64,000 nt of DNA from Torymus aiolomorphi (lineage: Eukaryota; Arthropoda; Insecta; Hymenoptera; Torymidae): contig CM070874.1 in assembly GCA_036365515.1 (NCBI GenBank), forward strand, positions 44,887,083 through 44,951,082. The letters run 5' to 3'. The translations under genes and the position numbers were made by a program. Below the pieces are notes generated by a model. It made no database searches. It was not told the DNA's origin and saw only the letters and a program-made list of their open reading frames with translations. Shown here piece by piece: positions 2,171 to 59,282 of the stretch. Each line of letters starts with the position of its first letter. Position 1 is the stretch's first letter.

Positions 2171-2182
2171 CCCTCCCCTTGT
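2171..2182 (-). promoter_or_regulatory. Polypurine tract
   Basis: The minus strand reads ACAAGGGGAGGG immediately before the TG that opens the 3' LTR. This is the expected place and composition for the plus-strand primer of an LTR retroelement. Confidence 0.8.
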
Positions 2183-2877: not shown

Positions 2878-3945
2878 TTAGTAAGTCCCTCGTTTACACA
2901 TCCTGAGGTGCCCTTTTAGGCTACGCCGCGTCATTCTAAATCCACAACCATGGTGTTTGATTATCTCCAATCCTGCTTGGAGATCGCAAATGGCTTGATG
3001 ATTGAAGATGTGCTTTCGGATCACATCACGCCCGCACATCGGGTGGTAAATAGTTAGGCGCTCCTTCTCTCGTGCAGAGATTATGGGGGAATCGTCGGAC
3101 ACGCCCCATATTTTGGCGGCGCACGGTTCAGGGCTGTCTCTGCGTCTTGTAGGTTGAAATATTTGATATAGGTCTGGATGATCCCCCTGTCTCCGATGGG
3201 GTGGGAGAAAAAGTAATCTATCCGCCCATATCTGCCGAATTGTTTGACGACTTCTAGTTCTTCGTCGACCGGGGTGATCACGATAGTGATCCTAAGCCCC
3301 GCAACATGCTCACTCATGCTGATCATTTTGGGGGTCCGCTCCCGTAATATTCGCGCGAACCTTTCTGCTCCCGTTTCGGGGGCCTTCAGCATTCTCGGCG
3401 ATTCTTTCGGTTCCGCTTGGCGTTCCTCTTGCTGCGTGGGCGGTTGATCACTTGGATCATCTTGGGGGGCAGAGTCCTCCTCGTCCTGATCCTCTTCGGA
3501 CGTCACGTCATCATACGCCCACAGGCTGTATTTATGGAATGCCTTCAAGCATTCGTCGAAGCTACTGAACTCTGCGTTCAGTGTATAGCTGGTACGCCCG
3601 CGTTTCTCTTTTTGATCCGGCCCCGTGAAATGGAGTGCCCCGTCTTTCCTCAACATCCGCATTAGCAGGGTAGTGGATCGACAGTCCATGTGTTCAAAAG
3701 TCCCCGTTGTTGGCTCTTCCGGATTCCCGTATATGGATATCAACCGTAGTCCGATCGCGTTCTCGATTTCCTGATCCTTATCTTCTTGGCTGGTTTTTTT
3801 CCTCGTCAGTGGGGATACAGGAAGGAGAAGGTTCGCGTCGAGCCCTCCATTTCTCGGCTATCCTTTGAAGGGCAACTGGTAAGCCTCCCAGTGCTCCTCC
3901 TGTACCTGACGCGTTGTCCTCTTGGGTTGATAGTAATCGAGACAT
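2878..3945 (-). pseudogene. Accessory gene B: two RRM-like folds plus two HCHC fingers, frameshifted
   Basis: Three open segments in different frames follow each other. The start is taken as the ATG at 3945, just after a 3' splice-acceptor-like sequence; there is no ATG at the upstream end of that frame. The first segment (to 3778) is low-complexity and basic. The second (3081-3743 and a little upstream) holds a weak RRM-like unit (residues about 1-70 from 3743), an acidic Glu/Asp/Pro/Gln linker, and a clearer RRM-like unit (about 148-208) with strands LRITIVITP and TYIKYF around a helix ending KQFGRYGRI. The third (2878-3102) holds two fingers of pattern H-x2-C-x11-H-x3-C. The frame breaks at the A7 run 3794-3800 and again near 3085-3105. 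A nucleic-acid-binding role is inferred. No retroelement gene known to me matches this arrangement. Confidence 0.6.
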
Positions 3946-3947
3946 GG

Positions 3948-3965
3948 CTGTAACAGACAATGACA
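3948..3965 (-). promoter_or_regulatory. Candidate 3' splice acceptor before accessory gene B
   Basis: The minus strand reads TGTCATTGTCTGTTACAG, then CC and the ATG at 3945. A pyrimidine-rich tract ending in CAG two bases before the start suggests a spliced subgenomic mRNA, as errantiviruses use for env. Splicing itself is inferred. Confidence 0.5.
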
Positions 3966-4075
3966 AGTTAATTGGGGTTTTATTTAAGCTTGGGATGGGG
4001 TAGATAAGAAAATGGCAAGGCAATATATATGTTTTTATGGGATAGAGACAATGGTGAGCGTTATTACAGAAGTCC

Positions 4076-4695
4076 TTATTGTTTTCGTAATTGTTCTAGG
4101 GCTCGCTGTCGCGAGCATGTGGGCAAGTGCATAACCCAGTTTCTGGTGTCAATAGGAAATCCACAGGTTCGGTGGGTCCTTTCCGTGATTCTATTGGTGA
4201 TGGTGTATTGGCGTAGGGCGGGTCGAGCTCGGTAACGTGCATCGCTCGAGCGAAGGGCATGGTTAGCATCTGCCTGGTGGTGGTACTTCACGAATCCATG
4301 GGACAACCTGTCGAGATGGTCCCTTCTCGTATAACAGTATTCCATGGTCCCGAATTTCGCAAAATGGGAAAAGAAACGGCGTTCGATCTTCTTTTCACCC
4401 TGATTTCTTTCTGTCCCTTGCCTGATCGTCGATCCCATGGTAGCTGACAGAATATTCGATTCTTATCGAATTTAAGGTTGTCTTTCTTGTTCGGAACCTT
4501 CCGGACTTCGGATCGCATTTTCGGGTCAGGGCTCCCGAGTCGTGACGTTTCTTCAATGTCTTCGGTTGCAAGTACAATGGGTGCGTTCTTGCCAGGGTCA
4601 GAGAGGGTTTTGGTGACCTCGTTTTTTATTTGAGTGGAGATAGTTTTTTCCATCCGTTGTAGTTGGATCAAGACCGTATTCAGAACTGAATCCAT
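4076..4695 (-). pseudogene. Accessory gene A: RRM plus one HCHC finger, one frameshift
   Basis: Two overlapping open segments (4288-4695 and 4076-4438) together cover one RRM. The first has a helical N-terminus rich in Gln, Lys and Thr, a charged middle and an RNP2-like strand RIFCQL (residues 80-85). The second supplies the helix IERRFFSHFAKFG, the RNP1-like strand SHGFVKYH (residues 46-53 from 4438) and the final helix DANHAL. It then has one H-x2-C-x11-H-x3-C finger (H89, C92, H104, C108). The strand and helix order is that of a canonical RRM, so the frame change between about 4385 and 4430 is a break inside one domain. The gene lies 140 bp after env in element orientation. The finger matches those of gene B, so the two genes are probably related by duplication. 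Confidence 0.65.
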
Positions 4696-4712: not shown

Positions 4713-4835
4713 ACTATGGAATGCTCTGTAACCGAGGGGAACCGGGATGATTAGTATTTATTCGGTGTCGATGGTTGTGATGGGACATGAGGAGATGGAT
4801 ATTGGGACGGGGCTCTTAAGGTTTTCTGCGGAACG

Positions 4836-6704
4836 CTATCCCGTTCCGGATCCCTGCATCTCGATGTCATACCCCCGGATAATAGGTTTGGACGTGGAGC
4901 GCCGGTTCCGCTTGAAGGGAAAAATTCGTGCGACGAGGTACAAAACGGCGCAGATTATGAAAACTCCCTGGACTCCCAGCCCGCTATAGATCAAGTTATT
5001 GGTGAAGGAAGTAGCCCGCTTGTGTCGGCCAACTTCTTGGAGTTGTGCCATGATGCTTTTCAATGATTCCTTTCTGTCGCCCCAAGACGGTAGATGACTT
5101 AAGGCTTCTTGTGTTAGTGTTGCCTCGCTGGTTGAGGAATTGTCCCGTAACTGAAAATTCGGTAGGAGGTCCGTCACGTTCAGTCCAAAATCTGGGTCGT
5201 ATATATATTGGGTCCTGAAGGTCCTGACGCTATTAGGAATTAAGGTCAGATGCGGAGTACGTCCCATGCATCTCTCGGCCAGTCTTAGTATCCCCACCCC
5301 CTGGAGGTTAACATTTTTGTAGACTTCCCCTGGACACGAGACCTGTATGGTCTCAGTCTCGATAGTGGAAAATAACCAGGTGCCGTCGGTTTCTAGATAG
5401 CGCCATTGCGTCGTGGTTTCCGGTCTCATGATGATGTTGCACAAGGAAAGGGATGCTTTCGTGGGATTGGTTAACATTTCGATCTCGCATTCCTTATGCC
5501 CCCCGGCGGTGTAGACGGCTCCTTGAGTGGGGCACATGTACCCATAGTGAGAGTCGAGGCAGTCCTTCAGCTGATGTTGATGGATCTTGAGGTAGGTCCT
5601 TTGATCTTTGCTAAGAATCATATACTCATATTCGGGGACGATACAGGCGGACCCTAGAGGATGCCCCGGAACGTTTTGAGGTATGGCGACGGGGTGTAGT
5701 CTGTATAAATCATAAGAAGTCCTATCCGTGAGCGGGAGGCTTAACCTTGCCAGAACCCTCCCTGAGTGGTATATAGCGTCTATGGAGGCAATTCGAGCGA
5801 TTTCCTCGGCTCGGATGTGTTGAGTAGGGATTGGGAGATCCAGATTGTCGTCTAATTGCCGAATATCGCTCGCGATACTCTGAATAGTGTCCCTCCTTAA
5901 CAGCCGGGGATGTATTCTTCGTTCCATCAGGTTGTTAAGGATGGCTAACAATTCTCGGTTGCAATAAATGAGATGGTCCATCTTGGCCTCGGTTTGTCGT
6001 GCGAACGCGTTTAGTTCCCATAAGAACTGGTTCTTCTCGGAATCTCTAGTGAGGTTATTCACCTTGTCTCGCATCTGGACTTCCATTGCTTTTACTAGAG
6101 CTTGATGAGATGCTGTCATGTTATAAAGCTCTTCCAGCCCTGCCGCTAAGATGTGTGTTTTGTCCTCGGTGAGTTTCGCAAGTTTGGTTTGATCCTGGAA
6201 GAGTTGGTCGATGTTTTTGTTGATCAAGTCCGCGTCCTCCTCCGTGACGAGTCCGAATAGTCCTTTGCTCATACTTCCGATTATTCCTAAAGGGGCCATC
6301 CTCTTGAATCGCATGTCTCTAAGAGGGGGGGGGGGCGTGTTAGGTTCCCTGACGTTCATGCTTTCCGCTAGGATCCGAATCTCGTCATGTAAGTTCAGGA
6401 GCGTTTGGTGTTTTACGTCCATTAGTTCTTTGCTGAGGATAGTATAACATCTATGCGGGTCGAAATATGCTTCGCACCTCTTGAGGTTAGCTGCGTAACT
6501 GTTAGAGGGTCGGTGGGTATTGATGAAGGCCGGTATGTCCAGATAGATAACGATCTTCCAGTCGTTTTTTCGTATCCGCACGGCTCGGGTCCGTTCATAA
6601 TAGATCCCGGGGTTGGTTCGAATCGGGGTGACATCGTAATAAGGGTCCGCAATGGCTAAAGTCCCCACCCCTAGGAAGAGGATTGCAGCAAGCAGTAGGT
6701 GCAT
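4836..6704 (-). CDS. env: Envelope fusion protein of the errantivirus-like element
   Basis: A single open frame of 622 residues from an ATG. Residues 1-19 form a hydrophobic signal peptide. At 132-135 the sequence RFKR is a furin-type site, followed by a Gly/Met/Leu-rich stretch (136-155) that resembles the fusion peptide of baculovirus F-type proteins. Next comes a long helical region with heptad-like spacing (about 157-240), then a Cys-containing ectodomain. A membrane anchor at about 573-595 is followed by a basic cytoplasmic tail of about 25 residues. The layout matches insect errantivirus Env, which derives from or is related to baculovirus F. The gene starts about 50 bp after the integrase stop, and expression by splicing is expected from the family. 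The frame is intact although neighbouring genes are damaged. Confidence 0.85.
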   Translation of the reverse strand: MHLLLAAILFLGVGTLAIADPYYDVTPIRTNPGIYYERTRAVRIRKNDWKIVIYLDIPAFINTHRPSNSYAANLKRCEAYFDPHRCYTILSKELMDVKHQTLLNLHDEIRILAESMNVREPNTPPPPLRDMRFKRMAPLGIIGSMSKGLFGLVTEEDADLINKNIDQLFQDQTKLAKLTEDKTHILAAGLEELYNMTASHQALVKAMEVQMRDKVNNLTRDSEKNQFLWELNAFARQTEAKMDHLIYCNRELLAILNNLMERRIHPRLLRRDTIQSIASDIRQLDDNLDLPIPTQHIRAEEIARIASIDAIYHSGRVLARLSLPLTDRTSYDLYRLHPVAIPQNVPGHPLGSACIVPEYEYMILSKDQRTYLKIHQHQLKDCLDSHYGYMCPTQGAVYTAGGHKECEIEMLTNPTKASLSLCNIIMRPETTTQWRYLETDGTWLFSTIETETIQVSCPGEVYKNVNLQGVGILRLAERCMGRTPHLTLIPNSVRTFRTQYIYDPDFGLNVTDLLPNFQLRDNSSTSEATLTQEALSHLPSWGDRKESLKSIMAQLQEVGRHKRATSFTNNLIYSGLGVQGVFIICAVLYLVARIFPFKRNRRSTSKPIIRGYDIEMQGSGTG

Positions 6705-6754: not shown

Positions 6755-9415
6755 TTAGTCAGAGGAGTCAGTAGGGGGGACGACTTTTAATTTATCCGTG
6801 TGTTTCCGAATTCTCTTCCCATTTGGGAGTTCGAGGATCACGTTGTTTCGTCCGAGAATTTCTACGATTTTCAGTGGCTTATTATAAAAACTGTCGAATT
6901 TTGAGGTACGGGGTTCCTTTAATACCCACACGTAATCACCGATCTTTCCCTTAAGGTTTTTAATTTTGAGATCATACCGATCCTTGCTCCGTATTTTGTT
7001 CGCGATCTGCGTCTCACCCGCTACCAGCTTCAGTTCACCCAACCTGGTCACAAGGTCCTGCAGATACACATTGTAAGTGCGCAACTTCTCGTCGTTAGGT
7101 ATGCGCATAGGGAACCTAGCCAGTTTGCCAAAAACGAGCTCGAACGGGGTAAAATTTGTTGCTGAGTGTACACTAGTATTGTAGGTGAACGTGGCAAACG
7201 GCGCGAGGTTGTCCCAGTCGTCGTACTTTTCGGAATACGTTCGAATAAAGTCGACCAAAGGGGCGTGACTACGCTCCAGCGATCCATTAGTCTGAGGGTG
7301 GTACCCCGATGTGGTGAGGTGATGTATTTTGAAGATCCTCATTAGGCTGTCAAAAATTTCGAAGAGGAAACTGGTTCCTCTATCGGACAATATAGCTCGG
7401 GGGGCGCCGAATTTGCAGATGAGATGTTTGGCTAGAGTGTCCGCGATGGTTAGGGCCTTGATATTTGGCAGGGGTATTGCGATCAGATATTTAGTGAGAT
7501 TACACTGGATAGTTAACATGTGGCAATTCCCGCGCGGAGTGATCCTGCGTTTCCCCACGGTGCCAATGGAGATTTTGTCGAAGGCTTCGATCGGGGTGTC
7601 GGTGATGATCATAGGTTCTCGCGTTTTGATCCGTTCTATTTTCCTTTCTTGACAACTTGGGCACCGACGTACGTGATCTAGAACATCATTGCGCATCCCC
7701 GGCCAATAATATCGCTCTCGGATCTTCTGGTACGTTTGGTTGATATCCTTGTGTCCTCCTACCAGGCTGTCGTGCAAGGTTTCGATGATCCGCTGTCGTT
7801 CTTCCTTATCAGGCAACTCCACCTTTCCATAACACATCACGACTTTAATCGGTGTTCCGCTGAAAATCTCCACGAGGGTCTCGGTGAGGAGTCCAGGGTC
7901 TAAGGTGTCGGTGAAGTCTCCTCTCCGGGATATCCTGATGCTGGATAAGTTTTTCTTCAACAAGAGGCCTCGTAGGTTCTTCAAACTGCATTTTAAACAT
8001 TTTATGTCAATAGGGTCGTAATATCTCTCTTTGATTACGAGAGAGAAGATATTATGGTTCTTATAAGGAGTAGTAATAATTTGCCCCAGTTTGGCCTTTT
8101 TTGATTTGAGATTCTTGAGGTCTAGAGCCCCGATGTCAGACAATAAGCGAGCAACGGGGTTATTTGTTTCGCAATCCTTGGCCAAAAAGTGGGCGTAATT
8201 GTCTCTCTTATAAGTGAGACACTGCCGTGAGATAATGACGTTGTTCTTAAGAGGTAGTGGTATGGCTGGCCGTTGCTCCTCTGATTCGCTAGGGCCTTCG
8301 GAGGGTGGCAATTTCCTTCCGTTGCTGCAGTCCGGATCGACGTATTGGTTCAGAGGCTGGTATTGCCCGAGCATAGACATGAACAACCCCAAGGTGTCGA
8401 TCGGCGGTTGAGTGAATTCTAAGTGTACGGGTTTAGACCCCTCCGCTTCTTCTCGGATATTCTCCAGCTGAGGGAAACGGGGAATAGGTTTAAAACTCCC
8501 AGGGGGGTAGGGAGTGCTTCTGGCCGTTGGAAGGCCTGCTCTTACTTTGGGAGTTACCGATATGGCGCGCTGCACGGGTTGGCTGATCATAGAACCGTCG
8601 CGCTCTCGGTTGGGTTTTTCTGGGGCTGTGTCTGGGTTCGAGGACGTAGCCGATTCGGGTTCGGTCGCGACCGCGGCCCGTTGCACCAGTTCAGTGATCC
8701 TTTGAGATAGAGCATCGTCATTCTGCCCATCATATAGATCCAACTGGTCCAATACGCTGCGTGTATGATCGTCAACAACGTCCCCTTCGGATAAGTGGGA
8801 CGGGAGCTCGAGAGGAGGGATCTCATCGCCCTCTTCCTCTATTCTCGTTTTCTCCGCCAGAATTCGGAGGCTCTCCTCAAACTTGCGGGCAGATTCCGCG
8901 ACTTCCTCAGGACTGATGGTGACTTGTCCGGGAGAGAGATCGTCATCCACTTCAGAGGCGCTCTGTTCTGGTGCAGTAGCTTGGATCTCCACCTGCTCGT
9001 CGACTGGTGCAGAAGTATCCGCAGTGGCGTCCATTTCGGATAATTCATTGGTGGTTTCTCTTGGTTCCTCTCCTTTCTCGTCGTTAAGCCTGATCCCGCT
9101 TCTTCGAGGATCATAGATCGGGGTTTTTGGTTCGTCGGTTTCGCCGGATTCCCCCCCTCCTGAGGAGGAAATGATCGATGAGTGCCGGCTAAACTGGGGT
9201 CCTATAGAGACATCCACAGGGCGACAACTAACCTCCTTTGATGGGGCCGGAAGTCCTTCTGTGTCGACGATTGCGACGGAGGGGCAGGCGATCGTTTGTC
9301 CGAATCCTTGTTCCCTGCAGAACCTATTCTTTTCCTCAGCCGTGTCCGCTGGGCTATCACGCTGTGTTCCAACACAGGCGCGGTCTTTTTCTTTAGAGCA
9401 CCCAAGGGGCGCCCT
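6755..9415 (-). CDS. pol: Pol, second part: acidic linker, macrodomain-like segment, integrase (-1 frame, catalytic Asp changed)
   Basis: The frame is open from 9415, after an in-frame TAG at 9416-9418, and overlaps the RT frame by about 210 bp in the -1 register. It has no early ATG, so it is the continuation of Pol. Residues below count from the GTG at 9217. There is an acidic disordered linker (to about 320), a macrodomain-like segment (325-465) and an integrase zinc motif with H482, H489, C519 and C522. The catalytic core has D612 and E648 separated by 35 residues, as expected. The first catalytic Asp should be at residue 552, in the ISI-x-TVG context, but the codon at 7562-7564 is GGC, Gly. 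The C-terminal part resembles the GPY/F-type region. Integration activity of this copy is therefore doubtful. Confidence 0.85.
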   Translation of the reverse strand, partial: RAPLGCSKEKDRACVGTQRDSPADTAEEKNRFCREQGFGQTIACPSVAIVDTEGLPAPSKEVSCRPVDVSIGPQFSRHSSIISSSGGGESGETDEPKTPIYDPRRSGIRLNDEKGEEPRETTNELSEMDATADTSAPVDEQVEIQATAPEQSASEVDDDLSPGQVTISPEEVAESARKFEESLRILAEKTRIEEEGDEIPPLELPSHLSEGDVVDDHTRSVLDQLDLYDGQNDDALSQRITELVQRAAVATEPESATSSNPDTAPEKPNRERDGSMISQPVQRAISVTPKVRAGLPTARSTPYPPGSFKPIPRFPQLENIREEAEGSKPVHLEFTQPPIDTLGLFMSMLGQYQPLNQYVDPDCSNGRKLPPSEGPSESEEQRPAIPLPLKNNVIISRQCLTYKRDNYAHFLAKDCETNNPVARLLSDIGALDLKNLKSKKAKLGQIITTPYKNHNIFSLVIKERYYDPIDIKCLKCSLKNLRGLLLKKNLSSIRISRRGDFTDTLDPGLLTETLVEIFSGTPIKVVMCYGKVELPDKEERQRIIETLHDSLVGGHKDINQTYQKIRERYYWPGMRNDVLDHVRRCPSCQERKIERIKTREPMIITDTPIEAFDKISIGTVGKRRITPRGNCHMLTIQCNLTKYLIAIPLPNIKALTIADTLAKHLICKFGAPRAILSDRGTSFLFEIFDSLMRIFKIHHLTTSGYHPQTNGSLERSHAPLVDFIRTYSEKYDDWDNLAPFATFTYNTSVHSATNFTPFELVFGKLARFPMRIPNDEKLRTYNVYLQDLVTRLGELKLVAGETQIANKIRSKDRYDLKIKNLKGKIGDYVWVLKEPRTSKFDSFYNKPLKIVEILGRNNVILELPNGKRIRKHTDKLKVVPPTDSSD
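7823..8245 (-). other. Macrodomain-like segment within Pol
   Basis: This covers residues about 325-465 of the integrase-frame protein. It begins with a hydrophobic strand, then YAHFLAKDCE, a helix, a GQIITT strand, FSLVIKERYYDP, a long helix rich in Leu and Lys, SSIRISRRGDFTDTLD, a helix, and IKVVMCYG. The order of elements parallels TARG1/OARD1-type macrodomains, which bind or remove ADP-ribose: His-x-(Ile/Leu)-Ser/Ala-x-Asp-Cys, a Gly-(Gln/Glu)-(Ile/Val) strand, a lysine-ending strand, an Arg/Pro-Ile-Gly-x-Gly-like loop and a last strand ending the fold. The catalytic loop is not clearly conserved (RRGD in place of an IGCG-type loop), so a binding or purely structural role is possible. The assignment rests on pattern reading, not a profile search. 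Confidence 0.5.
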
Positions 9416-12213
9416 CTACCTCGGACGGGGTTAAACACGGCCTTTGAGCGAGACGCCAGCGATTGAGTCCCGGACGGACCGGCTGCACCAAGGGCGGGCG
9501 TCGGTGTAAGGGGTCTATCACCCCCGTTTCCCGTGGGCTTGCCTGCGTCCTTACGATCCTTCAGAACCATGATCTTCAGCCGCGGGAGCTTTGTGTTAAT
9601 CTCGTCTTCGTCAGGTTGATCTGCGGGGTTCCTGGATAACGCATCGGCGTTGCAGTTCAATTTTCCGGGTTTGTACTTGAATGTGTACTCGTACCCGGTG
9701 AATTTGAACATCCAACGCATGAGTCTTTGTCCCGGATCCTTCCGACTGTGCATCCAATTAAGGGGCTCGTGATCGGCTACTAAAGTAAACTTACGGCCTA
9801 ACAAGTAGGCTCTGAACTGGCTGAGAGCATATAGGACGGCTAGGCATTCCTTTTCGGTAGTACTATAGTTGCGTTCGGCTTTATTCAGGGTCCTCGATAG
9901 GTAATTTATGGGGTGATCAAATTTGTCCCTCTCTTGACTTAGTACGGCTCCTATGGCTCCATCAGATGCGTCAGTTGTCAGAGTGAAAGGTTTATTAAAA
10001 TCAGGGAACGCCAGAATTGGATAGTTACATAATTTGTCCTTCAAGATTTCGAACGCTTCCTCCTGATCGGGACCCCACAGAAAGTCTTTATCCTTTTTCT
10101 GGAGTTCGTACAGTGGCTTAGCGATCTTGGAGTAATCCTTGATAAACCGGCGATAGTACCCGGTGAGCCCAGTGAACTCTCTCACATTCCGTACCGTCTT
10201 GGGTCGAGGGAAATTCTTTACAGCATGAATTTTTCCTGGATCCGGTTCAACGCCCTTGGCGCTGACAATATGCCCTAAAAAGGCTACTTCCTTGCCCAGA
10301 AAGTGCACCTTTTCAGGTTGTAGGACGAGCTTGGTTTCTGTTAACCGGTCGAAGAACTTCCTTACTCGGCGGTCATGTTCTTCGAGGGTTTTAGCGTGGA
10401 TGATTACGTCATCCATGTACACCAGCAGCTCTTTACAATCGATCCCGCGCTTAATTTGATCCATTAGTCTTTGGAATGTAGCGGGGGCATTTTTGAGTCC
10501 CATTGGCATACGATTGAATTCATAGTGTCCTTCCGGCGTGGAGAACGCGGTTTTCCATTTGTCCTCTGGAGCCATTTGAATTTGATGAAAACCGGAAGCT
10601 AAATCGAACACCGAAAAATACACGGCGCCTCCCAATTGATCTAGAAGCTCGGCTATGCTCGGGAGGGGGTATGCGTCTCCAACAGTGCGTTGATTTAATT
10701 CTCGAAAATCCACGACCATGCGCCATCTAGGCTTCCCTTGTGGGTCCGGCCTCTTAGGGACGATCCATATCGGGGAGCTGCTAGGGCTATTGGAAGGCTC
10801 GATGATTCCCTCCTTAAGTTTCTTTTCGATGTCTCTTTGTATGAATTCCTTGTGTGCCACGGGATGTCGATATTGTTTTGCATTAACAGGCTTGTTGGTA
10901 TCCGTAGGGATAAAATGTTCCACAGCGTCCGTGCATGGCAAGGGGTCTCCTGGTAATAGGAAGACATTAGTGTAATCGTGGATCAATTTATCTACATAGG
11001 CCTTTTCTTGATCGTTCAGATGATCGGTGGGGATAATCTTTTTAAGTTCTTGCATCCTTTTGGAGCTTTCCATGATGGGGTTGTTGGCTGCGACCTCGAT
11101 ATCATCCTCCGATCCTGGTTCGAAGTCCATAGCTGCGTATTCGAAAGGAATGAGTTCTCCCGGTTGTACTTCGATGGTAACATCGTCCTCACGAGTATTG
11201 ATGGCCATCACATGGCAGCAGTTGTTTTCCACCCTTACGATTCCTTCTCCCACGTAGACGTCGTCGTACCCGACGTCCAGAAGAGGTAGGTAATCTTCCT
11301 TCAAATCCGTCTTGGCGAGGTTAATTTTAAGCACCCTGCGCGACCGGCGGGGGATAGTGTACCGAATGGGGGCAGGTTTGTGGGGCGAGTCAGTAGGCGG
11401 TCCCTGTAGGTTTTTATTGCTAGTCGTTTCAGTGCGTGGAACGGTGGAGTCTGCCTCCTCGCCCTTTGGTTGCTTGCAGGTGGCGGTGTCGCAAATATTT
11501 ATTGGTTTGGGCGCGGCGGGCGGATCGATGAAAGGAATTGGGTGCATGACGTCGCTCCCAATCATCAACGTATTATAATGATACGAGATGACAGCCTTTT
11601 CTTGCTTAAGGTAATTTCTACCTAGGACCCCGTCTTGATCGATAGGAAAGTCATCGTAAGTGACTAAAAACGTGACAGGTTTCTCCCGGATGGTAAGGGA
11701 GACAGTGCCTAAGGTTTCTACCGTTTGATCGCTAATACCGATCAAAGGGATGGCTTGGTTAGTGTCCACCAGTGCCTTGGGATCCAAGGCTCCAACCTTA
11801 ACTAGGTTGACGGTGGCACCGTTGTCAACCATAAATAAGAGTCCATCCTTGCGACCCTCGGGAACCCTTACGCGTACTACTGTAGGCTCATCCTCTCTCG
11901 CATCCTCTCGGCCAACTGATGAACAGGAACCAATCCGGACGGCTGTGTCATCGGGGCTCTTGCTAGAAACACCCGTGGCGTCGGGCTGGTTTGACTGGCT
12001 TGCGGAGTGAGTTGACTTACCGGTGGTTGCTCGCGAGCCATCGGCTGAACGATCGGTGCTGAGTGAACAGGGCTCGCCTCCGAAAGTTCCGGACGAGCCC
12101 TCTGGGAGTTTAAAGACGCCTGCGGCGAAGGGTATGAGGTCGGTGGGCCATGGGATGGAGGAAGGCCAAGGGTAAAACCCGAATGAGTTTATTGATTGTT
12201 TGGGTAGTACAAC
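9202..12213 (-). CDS. pol: Pol, first part: protease, reverse transcriptase, RNase H
   Basis: The frame is open from 12213, after a TAG at 12214-12216, and is entered from gag by a -1 shift; the first ATG is only at 11832. Counting from 11832, the protease has a DNGA active-site variant of D-T/S-G-A (residues 3-6), preceded by the strand GLLFM, and a VLGRNYL element (69-75). RT has D410 in FDLASG, MPMGLKNAPATFQ (442-454) and YMDD (472-475). RNase H has D621, E660 and D687 in TDAS, STTEKE and ADHEP. The tail (about 800-816) contains an AT-hook-like RGRGRPLG followed by lysines. No stop interrupts protease to RNase H. Length and motif order fit Gypsy-type Pol. Confidence 0.92.
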   Translation of the reverse strand, partial: VVLPKQSINSFGFYPWPSSIPWPTDLIPFAAGVFKLPEGSSGTFGGEPCSLSTDRSADGSRATTGKSTHSASQSNQPDATGVSSKSPDDTAVRIGSCSSVGREDAREDEPTVVRVRVPEGRKDGLLFMVDNGATVNLVKVGALDPKALVDTNQAIPLIGISDQTVETLGTVSLTIREKPVTFLVTYDDFPIDQDGVLGRNYLKQEKAVISYHYNTLMIGSDVMHPIPFIDPPAAPKPINICDTATCKQPKGEEADSTVPRTETTSNKNLQGPPTDSPHKPAPIRYTIPRRSRRVLKINLAKTDLKEDYLPLLDVGYDDVYVGEGIVRVENNCCHVMAINTREDDVTIEVQPGELIPFEYAAMDFEPGSEDDIEVAANNPIMESSKRMQELKKIIPTDHLNDQEKAYVDKLIHDYTNVFLLPGDPLPCTDAVEHFIPTDTNKPVNAKQYRHPVAHKEFIQRDIEKKLKEGIIEPSNSPSSSPIWIVPKRPDPQGKPRWRMVVDFRELNQRTVGDAYPLPSIAELLDQLGGAVYFSVFDLASGFHQIQMAPEDKWKTAFSTPEGHYEFNRMPMGLKNAPATFQRLMDQIKRGIDCKELLVYMDDVIIHAKTLEEHDRRVRKFFDRLTETKLVLQPEKVHFLGKEVAFLGHIVSAKGVEPDPGKIHAVKNFPRPKTVRNVREFTGLTGYYRRFIKDYSKIAKPLYELQKKDKDFLWGPDQEEAFEILKDKLCNYPILAFPDFNKPFTLTTDASDGAIGAVLSQERDKFDHPINYLSRTLNKAERNYSTTEKECLAVLYALSQFRAYLLGRKFTLVADHEPLNWMHSRKDPGQRLMRWMFKFTGYEYTFKYKPGKLNCNADALSRNPADQPDEDEINTKLPRLKIMVLKDRKDAGKPTGNGGDRPLTPTPALGAAGPSGTQSLASRSKAVFNPVRGRGRPLGALKKKTAPVLEHSVIAQRTRLRKRIGSAGNKDSDKRSPAPPSQSSTQKDFRPHQRRLVVALWMSL

Positions 12214-12396
12214 CTAGGGTCTATTGGTTCTTTAGGTCGAGGGGTTCCTTGCGGGTAACCTCGACCTCGACCTCGATATCCCCCTCTACCTCGATTGTAT
12301 TGCGCGAAGGGGGGTCGATCGCCACCGGGAGCGCCTCCATTGGGCGATGGTTCAGCCGGCCCCGTGTAGAAGTATCCGATATAGGGGTTTTCCAGT
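12189..12396 (-). pseudogene. gag: gag 3' remnant, RG-rich
   Basis: Only the last 65-70 residues of Gag remain. They include an Arg/Gly/Tyr-rich nucleic-acid-binding tract (RGGYRGRGRG) and end at a TAA at 12189-12191. The open frame runs upstream into the LTR by chance. No capsid region, start codon, leader or primer-binding site lies between it and the LTR, so at least 1 kb has been deleted. Confidence 0.8.
12198..12204 (-). promoter_or_regulatory. gag-pol -1 frameshift slippery heptamer CCCAAAC
   Basis: In the gag frame the codons are TAC CCA AAC AAT CAA TAA, so C-CCA-AAC fits the X-XXY-YYZ rule. Slipping back one base gives CCC AAA and enters the pol frame, which is open from just upstream. 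The gag stop lies 7-9 bases further on. I did not fold the downstream RNA. Confidence 0.8.
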
Positions 12397-12868
12397 AAAA
12401 AAAATAATTTTGTCCACTGCGACTCTTTCAACGTATATATAAAAACTGATTCTAGTAGACTTCGCTTAGTCTAAGCGTGAAGGCTGCTAATTTCTTACTG
12501 CCGAGTTGGCGTGGCATCGTCGAGCTGCGCGTCGCCTTCCCCCCTAATTGTGCTCGCTTTCTCTCTCGTACCCACGCACCATATGCCCCTTGACGACAAT
12601 GTCGCACCGCTGTGCAACGCTTATCGCCGCTAAGGGGTGTCTTATTACTCGGCGCGTGTAGGAATGCGCTTTTCGGCTACGAGGGGAGAGTGCTGCGTGG
12701 ACGTAACTTGTTGCAGCTTTGGGCGATAAGCTCTTAACTAGAATCGCGTATACAAATTTTAAAATTTTACTGCGGGGAAAATATACGTTCCAATGAAAAC
12801 CATTGTATTCATTATAAGTTGAACCAATTAAAGAAAAAAAGGTAAAGCCAAAAAGTTGTCACGGATCA
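12397..12868 (-). repeat. 5' LTR of the errantivirus-like element
   Basis: About 98% identical to 1700-2170. In element orientation it opens TGATCCG where the partner has TGTTACG, and ends TTTTTTTTAC directly against gag-derived sequence. The missing primer-binding site marks the deletion junction. Confidence 0.92.
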
Positions 12869-17746: not shown

Positions 17747-18805
17747 ATGGCTGATTACACGCCCCAGGAGATTGTGAATATGATAAAAGTTGTTGGTGAA
17801 TGTCATGATAATTATAGGGCTGCAGAAAGACGCTATGCCGAGAAATATCCCAATGCCCGTCACCCAGATAGGAAAGCCATCAAAAGATTATTAACGCGAG
17901 CTACACAAGGCTCCATCGTTCGTAAGAGGCGCAAAACTGGAACGAAACAGCACATTGCGCTGGGTGTGCGAGCTATTATTGCTGAAAATCCCCACATTTC
18001 AACACGAGATTTGCAACGAATGCATGGTGTTCCCAAATCAACAGTAAATCGCCTGTTGAAAACATCTAAATTTCACCCCTACGACGTTCGCCTTACACAA
18101 ACACTAGAGGATGGAGATTATGCACGGCGTTTAAATTTTTGTCAATGGGCAAATAATCAGATACGTAGGGACCCTTTCTTTTTTGATCGAGTGCTATTCT
18201 CAGATGAAGCAAAATTTGATAATATGGGTGGTGTCAATCTTCATAATGCCCACTATTACGCTGAACAAAATCCTCATTGGCAACGAGATCATCGAATCCA
18301 GAGACGTTGGTCAATAAACGTGTGGGCAGGTATAATTGGAGATTATGTGCTGGGACCTATCTTTTACAATCAAAATTTGAATGGACAATTGTATTTGGAT
18401 ATTTTGCAAAACCAGCTACCTCCTCTATTAGAAGATATCCCACTTATCTTACGGCGGGATATGTGGTTTCATCAAGATGGAGCTGCTGCACATCGCGTTC
18501 GATCAGTCAAGAATTTTCTCAATGATACGTATCGTAATCGTTGGATTGGCATCGGCAGCCAAGTACACGAGTGGCCGCCTAGATCCCCAGACCTCACACC
18601 TCTTGACTTTTTTTTGTGGGGAGTAGTTAAAGGCAAAGTTTTTGCACATGCTCCAACAACCTTAGAGAACATGAGAGGAAGAATTATGGAAGCTTTCCAA
18701 TCCATTTCAGTGGAAACATTGAGGAATGTTCAAGCAAGCTTCCGAAGAAGGATGCAAATGTGTTTCAGAGAGAACGGACACTTGATCGAGCATTTGCTGC
18801 CTTAG
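17747..18805 (+). CDS. Tc1/mariner-superfamily transposase, intact
   Basis: The frame encodes 352 residues from an ATG. The N-terminus (about 1-60) resembles the DUF4817-type helix-turn-helix seen in arthropod mariner relatives. A second helix-turn-helix follows (about 88-115, with RDLQRMHGVPKSTVNRLL). The catalytic triad is D in LFSDEAKFD, D in WFHQDGAAAH and D in SPDLTPLDFFLWG. Thirty-seven residues separate the last two, a DD37D spacing. It cuts and pastes the element at TA. No stop or frameshift is present and the ends are intact, so it may still be active. I would place it in the IS630-Tc1-mariner superfamily without naming a family. Confidence 0.9.
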   Translation: MADYTPQEIVNMIKVVGECHDNYRAAERRYAEKYPNARHPDRKAIKRLLTRATQGSIVRKRRKTGTKQHIALGVRAIIAENPHISTRDLQRMHGVPKSTVNRLLKTSKFHPYDVRLTQTLEDGDYARRLNFCQWANNQIRRDPFFFDRVLFSDEAKFDNMGGVNLHNAHYYAEQNPHWQRDHRIQRRWSINVWAGIIGDYVLGPIFYNQNLNGQLYLDILQNQLPPLLEDIPLILRRDMWFHQDGAAAHRVRSVKNFLNDTYRNRWIGIGSQVHEWPPRSPDLTPLDFFLWGVVKGKVFAHAPTTLENMRGRIMEAFQSISVETLRNVQASFRRRMQMCFRENGHLIEHLLP

Positions 18806-51044: not shown

Positions 51045-53896
51045 TCTCCCGCGTGACTAGATAAGCTCTCCACTGAAAGTCGTAAGAGAGATCGGGGAGT
51101 GCTGAGAGCATTGTTCATTAATGCAACTTCTTTCAAGAAGCACGTTGATCAAGTTCGCATATTTCTGTGTGATAACCCGACCTGTGACTTATTTGGTGTG
51201 GTAGAAACTAAGCTGGACCCCTGTATCTCAGATGACGTCATTCAGGTCCGAGGATTTAAAGTATTTAGGCAGGATAGAAACAAGGATGGGGGAGGGGGAA
51301 GATGTTGCCCTTTATGTACGGAAAACCTATATATGTGAGTTTTTAACATCATCTGATACGCAAGCGAGCGGTAAACCAGGGAAACCCGAATATATTTTCT
51401 GTTCCGTCAAAAAGGGTGACACCGAGCCATTGCTGGTGTCTGTCATTTATAGACCTCCAGGTATATCTTTCACCAAAGACTCCAACCTTATTGATAAATT
51501 AAGGGATTACTGTGCTTGTTTCTCACGGAAACTTATCCTTGGAGACCTGAATGCCGATCTCCTGAAAGATGGCCATGAAGCACAATTTGTCAGCAAACTT
51601 TCAGCTGAACTATCGTTACAGGTCGTGCAGCATGGTGCCACGAATCACCACACACGCAGCTCTCATACATAGATTGACCTTATTCTTGTCGATGAAAATG
51701 ATACAGTACTGGACGCACGTAACATCCCGGCGAACTTTCACAGCACTCACAACATAACTGTCGTATCTCTCACATGGGTAAAATAGCCACTAGACAACAT
51801 AGGACCCATTGAGTATAGAATGTATAAAGATATAAATCCATCTGAACTGGCTGTCGTTTTGTGTGCTTGTGATTGGTCGTCATTTACTGACGGTACAAAT
51901 ATTGACACTGACGCTGCTCTAAACTGCCTCTGTGACAACCTAACGAGAGCAATAGAACAACTTGCTCCGCTAAAAACTTAAAAACCTAAAAAGAACAAAC
52001 TGCCATGGGCTGGAGCGGAGCTAAACCCTCTGCAACAAAAACGTGACGCTGCATGCAGACGTTTCAAGAGAACAAGAGACAAATTTTTCTTAGAACAGTT
52101 TTTATCACTTCGACAAACTGCTGATGACCTTGCTACACAGGCTAGGACATTATACTATCACAATAGGCTGACAGAGGCTCTGGCAAATAGTAATGTTTGA
52201 AAGGAGCTCAAAGACCTGGGGCTGCTATCCAAACCGGATGAGGATTTGAATGGTCTGGCGCCGGATGAACTGAATCAGCACTTTGATGGAGTATCAGTCT
52301 CGTTGCAGGACAGTGATGGGAGGTGTAAGGATGTCTTAAATACTGCAAGTTTGGAAGGTTTCAAGTTCAAAGAGGTTGGCTTGGCAGATGTCGTCCTTGC
52401 AGTCTCCCATTTCTCGTCTCAGGCTCGTGGTGAGGATGGCATTACCCAAAGTGTTGTTGCTAAAGCCCTCCCTATAATTGGGGAACATCTTGTGGGGTTG
52501 TTCAACTCCTCCTTTGCGCTGGGTGTTTTCCCGGATCTCTGAAAGAAAGCTCGCCGTAAGACCTATGAAAAAATGCGCTGCGCCAAAGAGTCCATTTGAT
52601 TTTAGGCCAATTTCGATTTTATGCTTTCTTTCAAAGGTTCTAAAGAAGATTGCACTACACCAAATGCAAGAGTTTCTGAAAAAAGAGAAAATCCTTGATC
52701 CTGTGCAGACGGGTTTTAAAAAACATCACTCAACTGTGACAGCGCTCCTTAAATTGACAGAGGATATACGTCGCGGCATCGACAGGAAATACGTCACGTT
52801 ACTGCTACTGTTTGACTTTAGTAAGGCATTCGACACAATTTCTTCCTCTCGTCTTCTCGAAAGGCTGAGATTGATGGGATTCTCCAGAACTGCTCTTCAG
52901 TGGATAAGCTCCTACACTTCTGGTAGGCAATAATGTGTTTAGACACAGTCCCAAGGTTCATCTTCGTAGTTAAACACGAATCTTGGAGTACCGCAAGGAT
53001 CAATTCTGGAACCCTTGTTGTTTTGTCTATACATCAACGACATACGTGATGTACTTGACTCGAGATGCATCAATCATATACTGTATGCTGATGACTTACA
53101 GGTTTGTGTACAAGTGCCCAAAGAAAATCTAGATGTGTGCATCCAAACACTGCAGCAGGCGGCAAGGGTGGTGTCGGGGTGAACCGTGGGCGTCTCTCTC
53201 AAACTCAACAAGCTAAAAACAAAGGCAATTGTCTTCGGCGGAAATCGTTTTATTAATGATTTTTACTCAAGTGCTGCGTCGAGGACAATCGACCTCGGAG
53301 ATGGTGTTGGTATCCCATTCTCTGACACCGTCACAAGTCTTGATGTTGTACATGTTACCAAGAAATTCAATCGAGTGATGTTTGCACTACGATTCTTTCG
53401 GCGTTACACCACAGAGGCTTTGCGTAAAAATCTCGCAACCGCTCTGCCGTTCCCTCATCCGGACTATTGCTCAATAGTTTTTCTTGATGCATCTCAAGAG
53501 TTAAAAACCAGACTGCAAAGACTGCAAAATTCAGGTGTGAGATATGTGTTAGATTTGGGTCGGGGTGATCGTATTTCTCCCCATAGAGCAGTTCTGAGCT
53601 GGCTACGCATTGAATGGAGGAGACACTATTTCATGGGGATATTGATGTATAAAATCATGCGTATGCATAACCCGAACTACCTTGAGAGTCTCTTCACTCG
53701 GTATCTGCCCAGATCTGCCACTAGGAGCGAAATTAAAGAATTAACAGCACCCCTGATGCGCACTGAAACTGGAATAAAATCGTTCAGCGTACGAGGTGCG
53801 CACCTCTGGAACTCTCTGCCTGCTGAGGTTAGAAATCTTCCATCGCTCAGCAGGTTTAAGGCTGCTCTAAGAAGGCACTTTCTCACATTAGACTAA
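51045..53896 (+). pseudogene. LINE 2 ORF2: APE endonuclease and reverse transcriptase, broken
   Basis: The endonuclease part has FGVVETKLDP (catalytic Glu region) and then, after a +1/-1 break near 51290, VIYRPPG and LGDLNADLL. In-frame stops occur near 51670, 51785, 51980 and 52198. RT resumes with DFRPISILCFLSKVLKKIA, HSTVTALLKLTEDI, LLLFDFSKAFDTI (52478-52933), NLGVPQGSILEPLLF (about 52980) and HILYADDLQ (about 53080). The C-terminal LINE domain (53186-53896) has RRLQNSGVRYVLDL-like and HLWNSLPAEVRNL motifs. The family is Jockey/CR1-like. It has been inactive for a long time. Confidence 0.85.
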
Positions 53897-53939: not shown

Positions 53940-54039
53940 CGTCCTTTAAGTTGGCAGGTCACTTTCGGAAAATCGTCATTATTACTATTGGATAATTTGC
54001 CGCTAATTATCCGTAAATTATCCGTAAAAGCCAAAAATT

Positions 54040-55650
54040 TGCCGCACCCCATTAAAAAAAATACAGGGTGCACTGCCAGCTTAATTTTAAGATAGCAGGA
54101 CACTATCGTAATCAATAAATAAAAAAAAATGGTTCGGTGGGAATTTGCCACTAATTATCCGCAGTTGATCTGTAAAGGTCCGAAATTTGCCGCACTTTAT
54201 TTATAAAAAATACCCGGACGCACTGCCAGCTTAATATTAAGATAGCAGGACACTATCCTAAAATTAAAGAATAAAAAAAATTGGTTCGGGGGGAATTTGC
54301 CGCTAATTATTCGCAGTTGATCTGCAAAGGTCCGAAATTTGCCGCACTTTATTCATAAAAAATAACCGGACGCACTGCCAGCTTAATATTAAGATAGCAG
54401 GACACTATCATAAAAACAATGAATAAAAAAATAATAGTTCGGGGGAAATTTGCCGCTAATTATCCGCAGTTGATTTGTAAAAGTCCGAAATTTGTCGCAC
54501 TTTATTTATAAAAAATACCCGGACGCACTACCAGCTTAATATTAAGATAGCAGGACATTATTATAAAAACAATGAATAAAAAATAATGTTTCGGGGGGAA
54601 TTTGCAGCTAATTATCCGCAGTTGAACTGTAAAGTTTCCAAATTAATCGCAATTTATTGATAAACAATACCCGGACGCACTGCAAGCAGTTTATCATGAT
54701 AGTAATGGGTCTGAACTTTGCAACGTTGGACTGCAACGAAATAAAAAAATAATTTATTTTACTTCACGTTTATACTAAATAATATTAATTAAGTGTAGAT
54801 TTTATGTGTTATAATATAAAATAACCTCATAACAAAGCTTTAGATAAAATTTCTATTGTTAAATAACTTTAATCAATCGTAAAAAATTATTTCGTTGCAT
54901 TCCAACCATACCAACTTCAGACCCCAGTGATAGCAAGACACAGTCGTAAAAACAATGAATAAAAAAAAATAGTTCGGGGGGAATTTACCGCTAATTATCC
55001 GCAGTTGAACTGTAAAGGTCCGAAATTTGCCGCACTTTAATTATAAAAAATATCCGGATGCACTGACAGCTTAATATTAAGATAGAGGGACACTATCGCA
55101 AAATCAATTAATAAAAAAAAATGGTTCGGTGGGAATTTTCCCCTAATTATCCGGAATGATCTGCAAAGGTCCGAAATTTGCCGCACTTTAATTATAAAAA
55201 ATATCCGGACGCACTTCCAGCTTAATATTAAGATAGCCGGACACTATCGCAAAATCAATTAATAAAAAAAAATGGTTCGGTGGGAATTTTCCGCTAATTA
55301 TCCGGAGGTGATCTGCAAAGGTCCGAAATTTGCCGCACTTTATTTATAAAAAATACCCGAACGCACTACCAGCTTAATATTAAGATAGCAGGACACTATC
55401 CTAAAATTAAAGAATAAAAAAAAATGGTTCGGGGGGAATTTGCCGCTAATTATCCGCAGTCGATGTGTAAAGGTCCGAAATTTGACGCACTTTATTTATA
55501 AAAAATATTCGGACGCACTGCCAGCTTAATATTAAGATAACAGGACACTATCATAAAAACCATAAATAAAAAAATGGTTCGGGGAGAATTTGCCGCTAAT
55601 TATCCGCAGTTGATGTGTAAAGGTACGAAACGGTTTTTCTTTTATTAAAA
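54040..55650. repeat. 152-bp satellite array, left arm
   Basis: Units repeat at about 54152, 54304, 54457 and 54609, and again after a nested 220-bp insertion. Each holds GGACGCACTGCCAGCTTAAT, ATTAAGATAGCAGGACACTA, a GAATTTGCCGCTAATTATCC block and AAAGGTCCGAAATTTGCCGC. The last units are more diverged. Confidence 0.9.
54706..54926. mobile_element. 220-bp MITE nested in the satellite, copy 1
   Basis: The ends GGGTCTGAACTTTGCAACG and GGGGTCTGAAGTTGGTATGG run inward with shared TGCAACGAAATAA further in. The core is AT-rich. Confidence 0.75.
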
Positions 55651-56635
55651 TTAAATATCTCGGCAACAAATGAAGCTAATTAAATGAGACAAAATGGAAA
55701 TTGTTCGTTATTAAGAATAACGTGTTTATGGCTTGTGTTTGATGTTCGTAGATGCAATAGTTTTACTGGCAGAGCGATATAATCAATGAATTTGTTAATA
55801 ACAATTTATTTCCTGGTTTTTCGAAAAAGTACCTAAGAAGTTCGTAAAATACGTACAAAAACCAATTAATCGCCCAAGGATATGTAACTGTACAAAAACT
55901 TTATGCGAAAAGTGGCTGGGCATCCGCATTAAAAGTACAGCCTGTGTATTACACAGGACCACAAATTTTGGTTTTCGATTATCGTGAGCAAACAAACGCA
56001 TGTCCTCTAAACATATTTTCGGTTGCTGAACTCGAATCTGTTCAGTATTTTTACCTATCACGTCCACACTTTTAGTCCATTACGAAAATGTGTTCAATTT
56101 TAACCAAATCAACGTATCACGCGCATATTTTTTTTTCTTGATATTTTGTAGTGGCAGCCCTGCGCGCCCGCGTGTGTACCGCTGTGAGCATCGTCTATAC
56201 ATAAGAGACTCTCTACCTACTGAGCTTTTGGCTCTGTGCTTTGTGTGCTCCATAAAAAATATCATTGTCCGAAATTTAGCATACTCGTGATCAGGGTTCC
56301 AAATAATTAATTAAAATTTGAATTAGTTAGCCCGTTTAATTAAGAATAAAATTTTTAATCCCTAATTAATTAAACGAGTTTTAAAAGAGACGCTTATGTT
56401 TCTCTTAGCATAAGGAAATCCGCGTTATAAATTGAACACATTATACCGTACAAGGAGTCGAGCTCTCGAAGACGAGCTTTGCATGCGTACATTCACATAA
56501 GTATAAGAAGGTTCGCAAAAAAATGTGAAAAGGGCTTTCCGAAATTTTTCGATCTGGCAGGGCAATTTATAAAAATAGAAAATATTACTTCTGAAACATT
56601 TGCCGCTTATTATTCGTGATTCAATCGTGTAACTA
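55650..56635. other. Core of the Foldback-like element, no recognised gene
   Basis: A minus-strand frame at 55795-56067 has mixed, protein-like composition but no ATG start and no domain I know. An inverted ATTAATTAAAATT/AATTTTTAATCCCTAATTAATT motif lies near 56300-56385. Confidence 0.45.
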
Positions 56636-56639
56636 AGGC

Positions 56640-57025
56640 CTTTGCAAAAGTGGAGGCACGTAGACAGGCTACCTATAAAATTATCAATCAAATAAGTTCT
56701 CAACGCAAGTAGACGGAGGATGCCAATGACACGCAGAAAAACAGAGTCACACAAACCGGCTGCCTTATAAAATCAAATAATTTCTAAACATAAATAGGCG
56801 GACGAAGCGAGTTACACGCAGGAAAGTTAGGACACGCAGATGGGCTACCGATGAAATTTTCAATAAAATAATTTCTAAACCCGAATAGGCGGGGAATCTA
56901 GTTTCACGTAGGAAAGTGGCGATACGCAGACAGACTAGATATCAAATTATCGCAATGAAATTTCTAAACGCAAATACTCGGGGGAAGCGAGTTACACGAA
57001 GTAACGTGGAAGCACGCGGTCTCGA
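56640..57025. repeat. Diverged tandem repeat, period about 90-95 bp
   Basis: Four to five units share AATTTCTAAACNNAAATAGGCGG, GAAGCGAGTTACACG and ACGCAGAYGGGCTACC-type words. They belong to the core and not to the 152-bp satellite. Confidence 0.7.
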
Positions 57026-57916
57026 AGTATAAATTTTTTAAAAATAAAGTACGACAAATTTCGGACCTTTACAGATCAATTGCGGATAATTTGCGGCAAA
57101 TTCCCCCGTCTATTTTTTTTTTTTTCATTGATTTTATGATAGTGTCCTGCTATCTTAATATTAAGCTGGCAGTGCGTCCGGTTATTTTTTATAAATAAAG
57201 TGCGTCAAATTTCGGATCCTTATAGAGCAACTGCGGATAATTAGCGGCAAATTCCCACCGAACCATTTTTTTTTATTCTTTAATTTTAGGATAGTATCCT
57301 GCTATCTTAATATTAAGCTGGCAGTGCGTCCGAGTATTTTTTAAAAATAAAGTGCGGCAAATTTCGGACCTTTACACATCAACTGCGGATAATTAGCGGC
57401 AAATTCTCCCCGAACCATTTTTTTTATTTATGGTTTTTATGATAGTGTCCTGTTATCTTAATATTAAGCTGGCAGTGCGTCCGGATATTTTTTATAAATA
57501 AAGTTCGGCAAATTTCGGACCTTTACACATCAACTGCGGATAATTAGCGGCAAATTCCCCCCGAACCATTTTTTTTTTTATTCTTTAATTTTAGGATAGT
57601 GTCCTGCTATCTTAATATTAAGCTGGCAGTGCGTTCGGGTATTTTTTATAAATAAAGTGCGGCAAATTTCGGACCTTTGCAGGTCAACTCCGGATAATTA
57701 GGGGAAAATTCCCATCGAACCATTTTTTTTTATTAATTGATTTTGCGATAGTGTCCCTCTATCTTAATATTAAGCTGTCAGTGCATCCGGATATTTTTTA
57801 TAATTAAAGTGCGGCAAATTTCGGACCTTTACAGTTCAACTGCGGATAATTAGCGGCAAATTCCCCCGAACTATATTTTTTTATTCATTGTTTTTACGAC
57901 TGTGTCTTGCTATCAC

Positions 57917-58136
57917 TGGGGTCTGAAGTTGGTATGGTTGGAATGCAACGAAATAATTTTTTACGATTGATTAAAGTTATTTAACAATAGAAATTTTATC
58001 TAAAGCTTTGTTATGATGTTATTTTATATTATAACACATAAAATCTACACTTAATTAATATTATTTAGTATAAACGTGAAGTAAAATAAATTATTTTTTT
58101 ATTTTGTTGCAGTCCAACGTTGCAAAGTTCAGACCC
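57917..58136. mobile_element. 220-bp MITE nested in the satellite, copy 2
   Basis: Reverse complement of 54706-54926 with few changes. Confidence 0.75.
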
Positions 58137-59062
58137 ATTACTATCATGATAAACTGCTTGCAGTGCGTCCGGGTATTGTTTATCAATAAATTGCGATTAA
58201 TTTGGAAACTTTACAGTTCAACTGCGGATAATTAGCGGCAAATTCCCCCCGAAACATTTTTTTTTATTCATTGTTTTTATAATAATGTCCTGCTATCTTA
58301 ATATTAAGCTGGTAGTGCGTCCGGGTATTTTTTATAAATAAAGTGCGACAAATTTCGGACCTTTACAAATCAACTGCGGATAATTAGCGGCAAATTCCCC
58401 CCGAACTATTATTTTTTTATTCATTGTTTTTATGATAGTGTCCTGCTATCTTAATATTAAGCTGGCAGTGCGTCCGGTTATTTTTTATAAATAAAGTGCG
58501 GCAAATTTCGGACCTTTGCAGATCAACTGCGAATAATTAGCGGCAAATTCCCCCCGAACCAATTTTTTTTATTCTTTAATTTTAGGATAGTGTCCTGCTA
58601 TCTTAATATTAAGCTGGCAGTGCGTCCGGGTATTTTTTATAAATAAAGTGCGGCAAATTTCGGACCTTTACACATCAACTGCGGATAATTAGCGGCAAAT
58701 TCCCACCGAACCATTTTTTTTTTTTATTTATTGATTTTACGATAGTGTCCTGCTATCTTAATATTAAGCTGGCAGTGCGTTCGGGTATTTTTTATAAATA
58801 AAGTGCGGCAAATTTCGGACCTTTGCAGATCATTCCGGATAATTAGGGGAAAATTCCCACCGAACCATTTTTTTTTATTAATTGATTTTGCGATAGTGTC
58901 CCTCTATCTTAATATTAAGCTGTCAGTGCATCCGGATATTTTTTATAATTAAAGTGCGACAAATTTCGGACCTTTACAGTTCAACTGCGGATAATTAGCG
59001 GCAAATTCCCCCCGAACTTTTTTTTTTTATTCATCGTTTTTACGACTGTGTCTTGCTATCAC

Positions 59063-59282
59063 TGGGGTCTGAAGTTGGTATGGTTGGAATGCAACGAAAT
59101 AATTTTTTACGATTGATTAAAGTTATTTAACAATAGAAATTTTATCTAAAGCTTTGTTATGAGGTTATTTTATATTATAACACATAAAATCTACACTTAA
59201 TTAATATTATTTAGTATAAACGTGAAGTAAAATAAATTATTTTTTTATTTCGTTGCAGTCCAACGTTGCAAAGTTCGGACCC
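59063..59282. mobile_element. 220-bp MITE nested in the satellite, copy 3
   Basis: Same sequence and same junctions as copy 2, so it arose by array duplication and not by new insertion. Confidence 0.75.

Follow-up and report, generated by a model that had tools for sequence, protein, structure and literature searches.

Two conserved genes for predicted RRM–zinc finger proteins downstream of env in an errantivirus-type retroelement of Torymus aiolomorphi

A 64,000 nt stretch of the torymid wasp Torymus aiolomorphi (assembly GCA_036365515.1, contig CM070874.1, positions 44,887,083 to 44,951,082 of the forward strand), referred to here as the window, carries on its minus strand an env-carrying Ty3/gypsy retroelement that is of errantivirus type by its domain order, its baculovirus F-like env and its CCHC-free Gag. 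Two further genes, A (4695–4076) and B (3945–2878), lie on the element's coding strand between env and the polypurine tract, as a first-pass annotation of the sequence had described. They belong to the element and are not a single-copy accident, because their conservation across diverged families excludes the capture of host sequence by one copy. By their shared sequence, genes A and B are paralogues of each other. The proposal made here, tentative and somewhat short of probable, is that these conserved post-env genes encode RNA recognition motif (RRM)–zinc finger proteins, likely captured from a host RBM45-like gene, that would bind the element's RNA and set the balance between its spliced and unspliced forms.

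Genes A and B and their predicted products

Gene A (4076–4695, minus strand) encodes a basic protein of 206 aa where open, with an RRM and one HxxC...HxxxC zinc finger. In the window copy it is split over two frames (4695–4288 and 4438–4076), and the motifs from which a canonical RRM layout had been read are spread over both: the first piece holds RIFCQL, and the second holds FSHFAKFG, SHGFVKYH and DANHAL. The RRM assignment itself holds, the second piece alone matching RRM_1 (PF00076) with an E-value of 3.9e-5 and 23.9 bits, against a gathering score of 20.7. Gene A of locus L009, of the same family as the window copy, also passes this score (22.5 bits), and the incomplete gene A of L071 falls under it (17.5 bits). 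The L009 protein has an isoelectric point (pI) of 10.1 and one copy of the motif H-x2-C-x(11-12)-H-x3-C. Full-length A proteins are 206–246 aa long with the finger at the end, the aromatic RNA-contact residues are mostly retained in the alignment, and some relatives carry an additional N-terminal RRM, giving a tandem RRM layout. A first look at a Foldseek search with the A model gave RRMs mixed with Y-family polymerases; in a second look, RRMs made up most of the top matches, beside a small number of unrelated chains such as a dehydrogenase at rank 9.

Gene B (2878–3945, minus strand; 355 aa where open) is predicted to encode two RRMs followed by two C-terminal HxxC...HxxxC fingers, and the finger motif defined above occurs twice in the gene B of L009. 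The window copy is broken into three frames, the first from the ATG at 3945, the second at 3857–3081 and the third at 3291–2878. One clear and one weaker RRM-like unit had been noted in it; structure prediction agrees in giving two RRMs, the second with a beta-alpha-beta-beta-alpha-beta fold, but gene B of the window family has no significant RRM match in Pfam. Weak Pfam matches of the same gene to TTI1 TPR, zf-TRAF_2 and Nup35 RRM were judged uninformative. Gene B of a third subfamily does pass the PF00076 gathering score (34.4 bits). A search of the PDB with a gene B profile returned nothing at E ≤1, and a Foldseek search of viral structures with the B model gave no match at E ≤0.001, the top one being an alphabaculovirus RRM protein (1.5e-3). 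Genes A and B share an RRM–finger cassette at an E-value of 3e-10.

In one subfamily (L037–L050 and the ENA proteins P0001–P0003), the B protein ends in CILQ, CVLQ, CTLQ, CCVQ or CILK, following an acidic YxTP tail. Of 14 loci scanned, 11 gave the tail, and 10 of these have the CaaX-like CxxQ/K end, as do all three ENA proteins; the B proteins of L009 and L071 do not have it.

Conservation and selection

Copies of the genes were sought throughout the 1.08 Gb genome. The search with gene B gave 117 matched stretches (150 of 161 candidates scored) and that with gene A gave 150 (150 of 442 candidates scored), some loci being in at least two pieces. Thirty-six of the 117 gene B matches span at least residues 4–220 at an identity of at least 95%, and 32 of these are free of internal stops. 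Comparison of individual copies, made without building a consensus, confirmed that the region is present beyond the window copy: among the best 30 gene B loci (window copy included), 19 have an open A, 21 an open B and 13 both, and an LTR (long terminal repeat) match follows B in 29, two of these matches being short. Twenty diverged loci, picked by their gene B match, all have an env match, 19 have an A match in order, and 16 have an integrase match. Identity among them is as low as about 50% in env and about 30% in B, so A and B are old in the lineage.

Starting instead from env, 71 loci were examined, with a scored A behind env in 61 and a scored B in 57. When 14 hand-picked RBM45-like places are also counted, 66 of the 71 have one or other feature behind env; in the remaining five, the genes may fall outside the matches listed or may be lacking. 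Proteins from ENA contigs widen both families (three for B, six for A), and, of the loci fetched, the one nearest to P0001 shares 52% identity with it along most of its length. Searches for relatives gave none in viral contigs (with the A and B profiles), in phage records (with the A relative P0005 alone) or in a protein collection (with gene B of L071).

Between families, the ratio of non-synonymous to synonymous change (dN/dS) in gene A is 0.11–0.19 in six pairs, four further pairs being saturated; gene A is under purifying selection. Gene B is saturated in most pairs, and one near-saturated pair gives a dN of 0.157 and a dS of 2.30 (dN/dS 0.07) over the C-terminal 260 codons. For comparison, a dN of 0.073 and a dS of 0.80 were obtained over part of env in one pair. 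Within the window family, A has a pN/pS (the corresponding ratio of proportions of differences) of 0.53, and B has one of 0.57.

Source of the RRM

A profile of ten A proteins found RBM45 as its best match in the PDB (4e-6 for the whole chain), and with gene A of L072 as query RBM45 scored 3.8e-8 and the second-ranked protein 0.031. RBM45 is thus the solved structure that A matches best, which points to a host RBM45-like gene as the likely origin. The host orthologue lies at L063, which matches RBM45 at E 6e-37 and its second-best protein at 8e-23. A genome search with its second RRM (RRM2) returned RBM45 itself, its RRM1 and one other RRM ahead of the remaining matches, and then many loci with a single repeated match pattern at about 33–41% identity; a single one of these, L072, was read, and it holds the gene A of a fourth subfamily. 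The host RBM45 RRM2 also ranked first of 10 RRMs for six of six A units. The RRM of A retains the R-x-F-C-x-x-P and FGxxEY motifs of RBM45, and is 28–34% identical to it in five A proteins and 39% identical in L072. By gene, A matches RBM45 best and B gives a mixed picture.

Gene A is not classed as an RBM45 orthologue because its product has 206–246 aa and ends in a finger; what we take to be the RBM45 domain set beyond RRM1 and RRM2 is absent from it. These likenesses suggest that capture from a host RBM45-like gene is likely, and we infer a later duplication of the captured gene inside the element. The idea that this lineage had acquired RNA-binding accessory genes was already part of the first-pass annotation, and the RRM–zinc finger build and conservation in diverged families bear it out; it is now modified in that the two genes are paralogues, by their sequences, with a likely RBM45-like source.

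Acceptor-like sites and expression

An acceptor-like site, TTGTCTGTTACAG (3948–3960, minus strand), ends 2 nt ahead of the gene B ATG, and another, CCCTCGGTTACAG (4726–4738, minus strand), lies 30 nt ahead of the gene A ATG. Fifteen of 16 loci have a YAG 2–3 nt ahead of the start of B, and 13 of 16 pass a strict pyrimidine rule there, compared with 36 of 1596 other ATGs of those loci (2%); L009, which has the same letters as TTGTCTGTTACAG, fails the rule by one pyrimidine. For gene A, the strict count in a 40 nt window is 11 of 12 (other ATGs, 153 of 1269). The env start is preceded at 23–34 nt by TTYCAG in all eight loci, and a donor-like CAG/GTAAC occurs in three of four fetched leader pieces. 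The acceptor signal is weaker for A and env than for B. In Drosophila elements, env is typically expressed from a spliced subgenomic transcript, according to a passage in PMC12992720. Given this precedent and the acceptor-like sites before B, A and env, it is likely that all three genes are expressed by alternative splices of one transcript.

Possible roles of A and B

The course of events proposed here is that a host RBM45-like RNA-binding gene was captured by the element lineage and duplicated inside the element, giving A and B, and that env, A and B would each be expressed from their own spliced mRNA. The element would then need unspliced RNA for gag-pol and for genomes, and spliced RNA for its three 3′ genes, and would gain from a protein that set the balance between the two. 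The basic A, an RRM–finger protein of likely RBM45 descent, may bind element RNA, with its acidic paralogue B as a putative partner; together they might restrain splicing, or promote the export and packaging of unspliced RNA. Among complex retroviruses, the counterparts of such a role are Rev and Rex.

Several results weigh against this proposal, including those on descent that are given below with the other possible sources of the RRM. The rows counted are related copies and not independent. The mean predicted local distance difference test score (pLDDT) is 59.7 for the B model and 58.1 for the A model, which was built from the ENA relative P0005 rather than from the window family and in which the second RRM is of low confidence. 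Besides lacking a Pfam match in the window family, gene B has a second RRM in which, by alignment, RNP2 is without the usual aromatic residue and RNP1 is without one; RNA binding is less sure for B than for A because most of the RNA-contacting aromatics are missing there. The acceptor-like site before A lies at 1, 8, 32 or 39 nt depending on the family, and none of eight env starts passes the strict acceptor rule (113 of 880 other ATGs do). As to selection, the usable gene B pair is close to saturation, and three very close pairs have dN/dS values of 0.38, 0.42 and 0.94, although raised ratios in close pairs may be expected if recent copies drift.

The main rival is a nucleocapsid-like or assembly role, in which A and B replace the nucleocapsid, their fingers and RRMs coating and packaging the genomic RNA in trans for a Gag without CCHC knuckles. 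This is rather unlikely, though several observations favour it: no CCHC array is seen in the three Gag frames taken from other copies, the A protein of L009 is basic, fingers and RRM are common to A and B, and the CaaX-like end of B in one subfamily would place B at membranes, where particles form. However, several errantiviruses are described in a portion of PMC2774666 as having zero CCHC arrays, so that a missing CCHC alone demands no helper. The RG-rich tail of Gag may do the job, and the CaaX-like end is absent from L009, of the window family, and from L071.

Regulation of element RNA by A and B could also be carried further, to an equivalent of the complex retroviruses among errantiviruses. 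The capture of an RBM45-like gene and its duplication would have led to two-protein RNA control by way of extra spliced mRNAs, with one subfamily adding a prenylation signal on the second protein that would tether viral RNA to membranes for assembly, like the large delta antigen. This extended version is unlikely to be correct as a whole.

It is equally doubtful that the RRM came from a different host protein, of ELAV or PABP type, or from a virus, since RBM45 leads the PDB searches for A with both queries (the ten-protein profile and L072) and host RBM45 RRM2 comes first for every A unit. The descent from RBM45 nevertheless has its weak points. The link to RBM45 comes from one short domain, no single stretch of the A profile scoring better than 0.004, and the host RRMs used for comparison were picked for their likeness to RBM45 RRM2. 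No clear tie to RBM45 RRM2 is shown by A's N-terminal RRM, which reaches 9.5 bits at best, or by B's first RRM, which reaches 5.3 bits; the second RRM of B matches it weakly (7.8–14.6 bits), that of L009 being closer to RRM1, and the third-subfamily B places ELAVL1 (1.8e-4) slightly ahead of RBM45 (3.7e-4). An initial tree that took in every RRM unit gave no resolution. In another tree a branch with support of 90/88, under the usual cut-off, separates RBM45 RRM2, the A units and a single B unit from the rest. Six alternative groupings are 5 to 16 log units worse, and approximately unbiased (AU) tests reject one of the six (p 0.026; others 0.052 to 0.25).

A host-directed role, with A and B as decoys or antagonists of host RBM45 or of the RNA-silencing machinery, is improbable. 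The RRM is likely of host origin, and post-env accessory genes recall those of complex retroviruses, but A is under purifying selection between families and mostly keeps its aromatic RNA-contact residues, and the present data contain no link to silencing. That the genes are functionless, being open frames that arose by chance or host sequence picked up by one copy or a few, is hardly credible and is refuted by the other copies: A and B are both broken in the window copy, but in diverged subfamilies, and also in L071, they are present with order and selection retained.

Structure of the element and state of the window copy

On the minus strand, the element runs from a 5′ LTR (12863–12398) to a 3′ LTR (2165–1701, extending lower) in the order gag remnant, pol, env, gene A, gene B, 3′ LTR. 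The repeats 1701–2141 and 12398–12839 differ at 7 of 441 aligned positions and continue to 2165 and 12863; the portion at 1701–2165 is the part of the 3′ LTR held in common with the 5′ LTR, and the 5′ LTR is probably cut short on the inner side, where gag is missing. The polypurine tract AAGGGGAGGG (2171–2180, minus strand) adjoins the 3′ LTR. Long TA microsatellites are present between gene B and the 3′ LTR (2434–2570 and 2770–2872).

The domains of pol are in errantivirus-type order by Pfam, with a reverse transcriptase and RNase H part at 9202–11832 (RVT_1 E 1.6e-35, RT_RNaseH_2 E 4.3e-38) and an integrase part at 6755–9217 (Integrase_H2C2 E 3.7e-22), both on the minus strand and out of frame with each other in the window copy. 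A split pol as a feature of the element was considered and rejected: of eight other copies examined over a 1.2 kb stretch around the break, five are open throughout and a sixth is open for 386 codons. As most other copies are open there, the split is damage to the window copy. In pol 9217–6755 and in L051–L058, about 300 residues, judged by eye, have no Pfam match between RNase H and integrase.

The env gene (4836–6704, minus strand) is intact, with an open frame of 622 aa for a baculovirus F-like envelope protein (Pfam Baculo_F PF12259, E 2e-32). Apart from the frame breaks in pol, A and B, the damage to the window copy is the loss of most of gag, of which a remnant with the RG-rich tail is left at 12189–12397 (minus strand). 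The gag region of four other copies was fetched, and is a single frame of 445–483 codons in three, those without a CCHC array, and in two pieces in one.

Other features in the window

An open frame of 352 aa at 17747–18805 (plus strand) passes the cut-off for a DUF4817 helix-turn-helix, scores 27.9 bits for a Tc3-type transposase domain (cut-off 31.5), and is probably, by these matches, a mariner-like transposon. Arrays of a 152-bp unit within 53994–59999 resemble the arms of a foldback element, the unit being in one orientation at 54.0–55.6 kb and, judged from individual units, in the opposite one at 57.0–60.0 kb. Fragments at 53186–53896 and 63304–63864 read by eye like the reverse transcriptases of long interspersed nuclear elements (LINEs) and Penelope-like elements.

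Relationship to known systems

The element resembles errantiviruses (gypsy, ZAM group) in its LTRs, its order of reverse transcriptase, RNase H and integrase, its baculovirus F-like env and its CCHC-free Gag, but differs in having two additional genes between env and the 3′ LTR. Parts of a 2009 survey (PMC2774666) place additional genes in the Tat clade and some fungal chromoviruses among the Ty3/gypsy elements, and use this trait to distinguish several errantiviruses from spumaviruses. The first-pass annotation knew of no errantivirus with RRM genes, and a literature search, which did not cover the 2025 metazoan survey of Chary and Hayashi (eLife 108449; cited in a passage of PMC13172572), found none. 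The text concerned in PMC3230855 mentions RRMs merely as a common Pfam family.

The A proteins are like RBM45 (Drb1) in the two RRM motifs noted above and, in relatives with an N-terminal RRM, in their tandem RRMs; unlike RBM45, the element proteins are short, have added HxxC...HxxxC fingers and are of low RRM identity to it. The RRM-containing ORF1 proteins of LINEs are the main ribonucleoprotein components of non-LTR elements and are encoded ahead of the reverse transcriptase. By description, they share the combination of RRM and zinc finger in a retroelement protein, whereas the genes described here come after env.

Complex retroviruses (human T-cell leukaemia virus (HTLV), lentiviruses and spumaviruses) have accessory genes 3′ of env that are expressed by extra splicing, and such genes distinguish them from simple retroviruses. 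The element is like them in having accessory genes in this position, likely expressed in a similar way, but belongs to a different retroelement family, and its RRM–finger proteins are not of Rev, Rex or Tas type; we know of no sequence relation between A or B and the accessory proteins of complex retroviruses. To our knowledge, the origins of many retroviral accessory genes are not known. Here, a plausible host source, RBM45, is in the same genome, and copies are available at several depths of divergence, so that capture, duplication and selection can be traced. If A and B do control the RNA of the element, an unrelated branch of env-carrying retroelements would have arrived independently at post-transcriptional control of its own expression.
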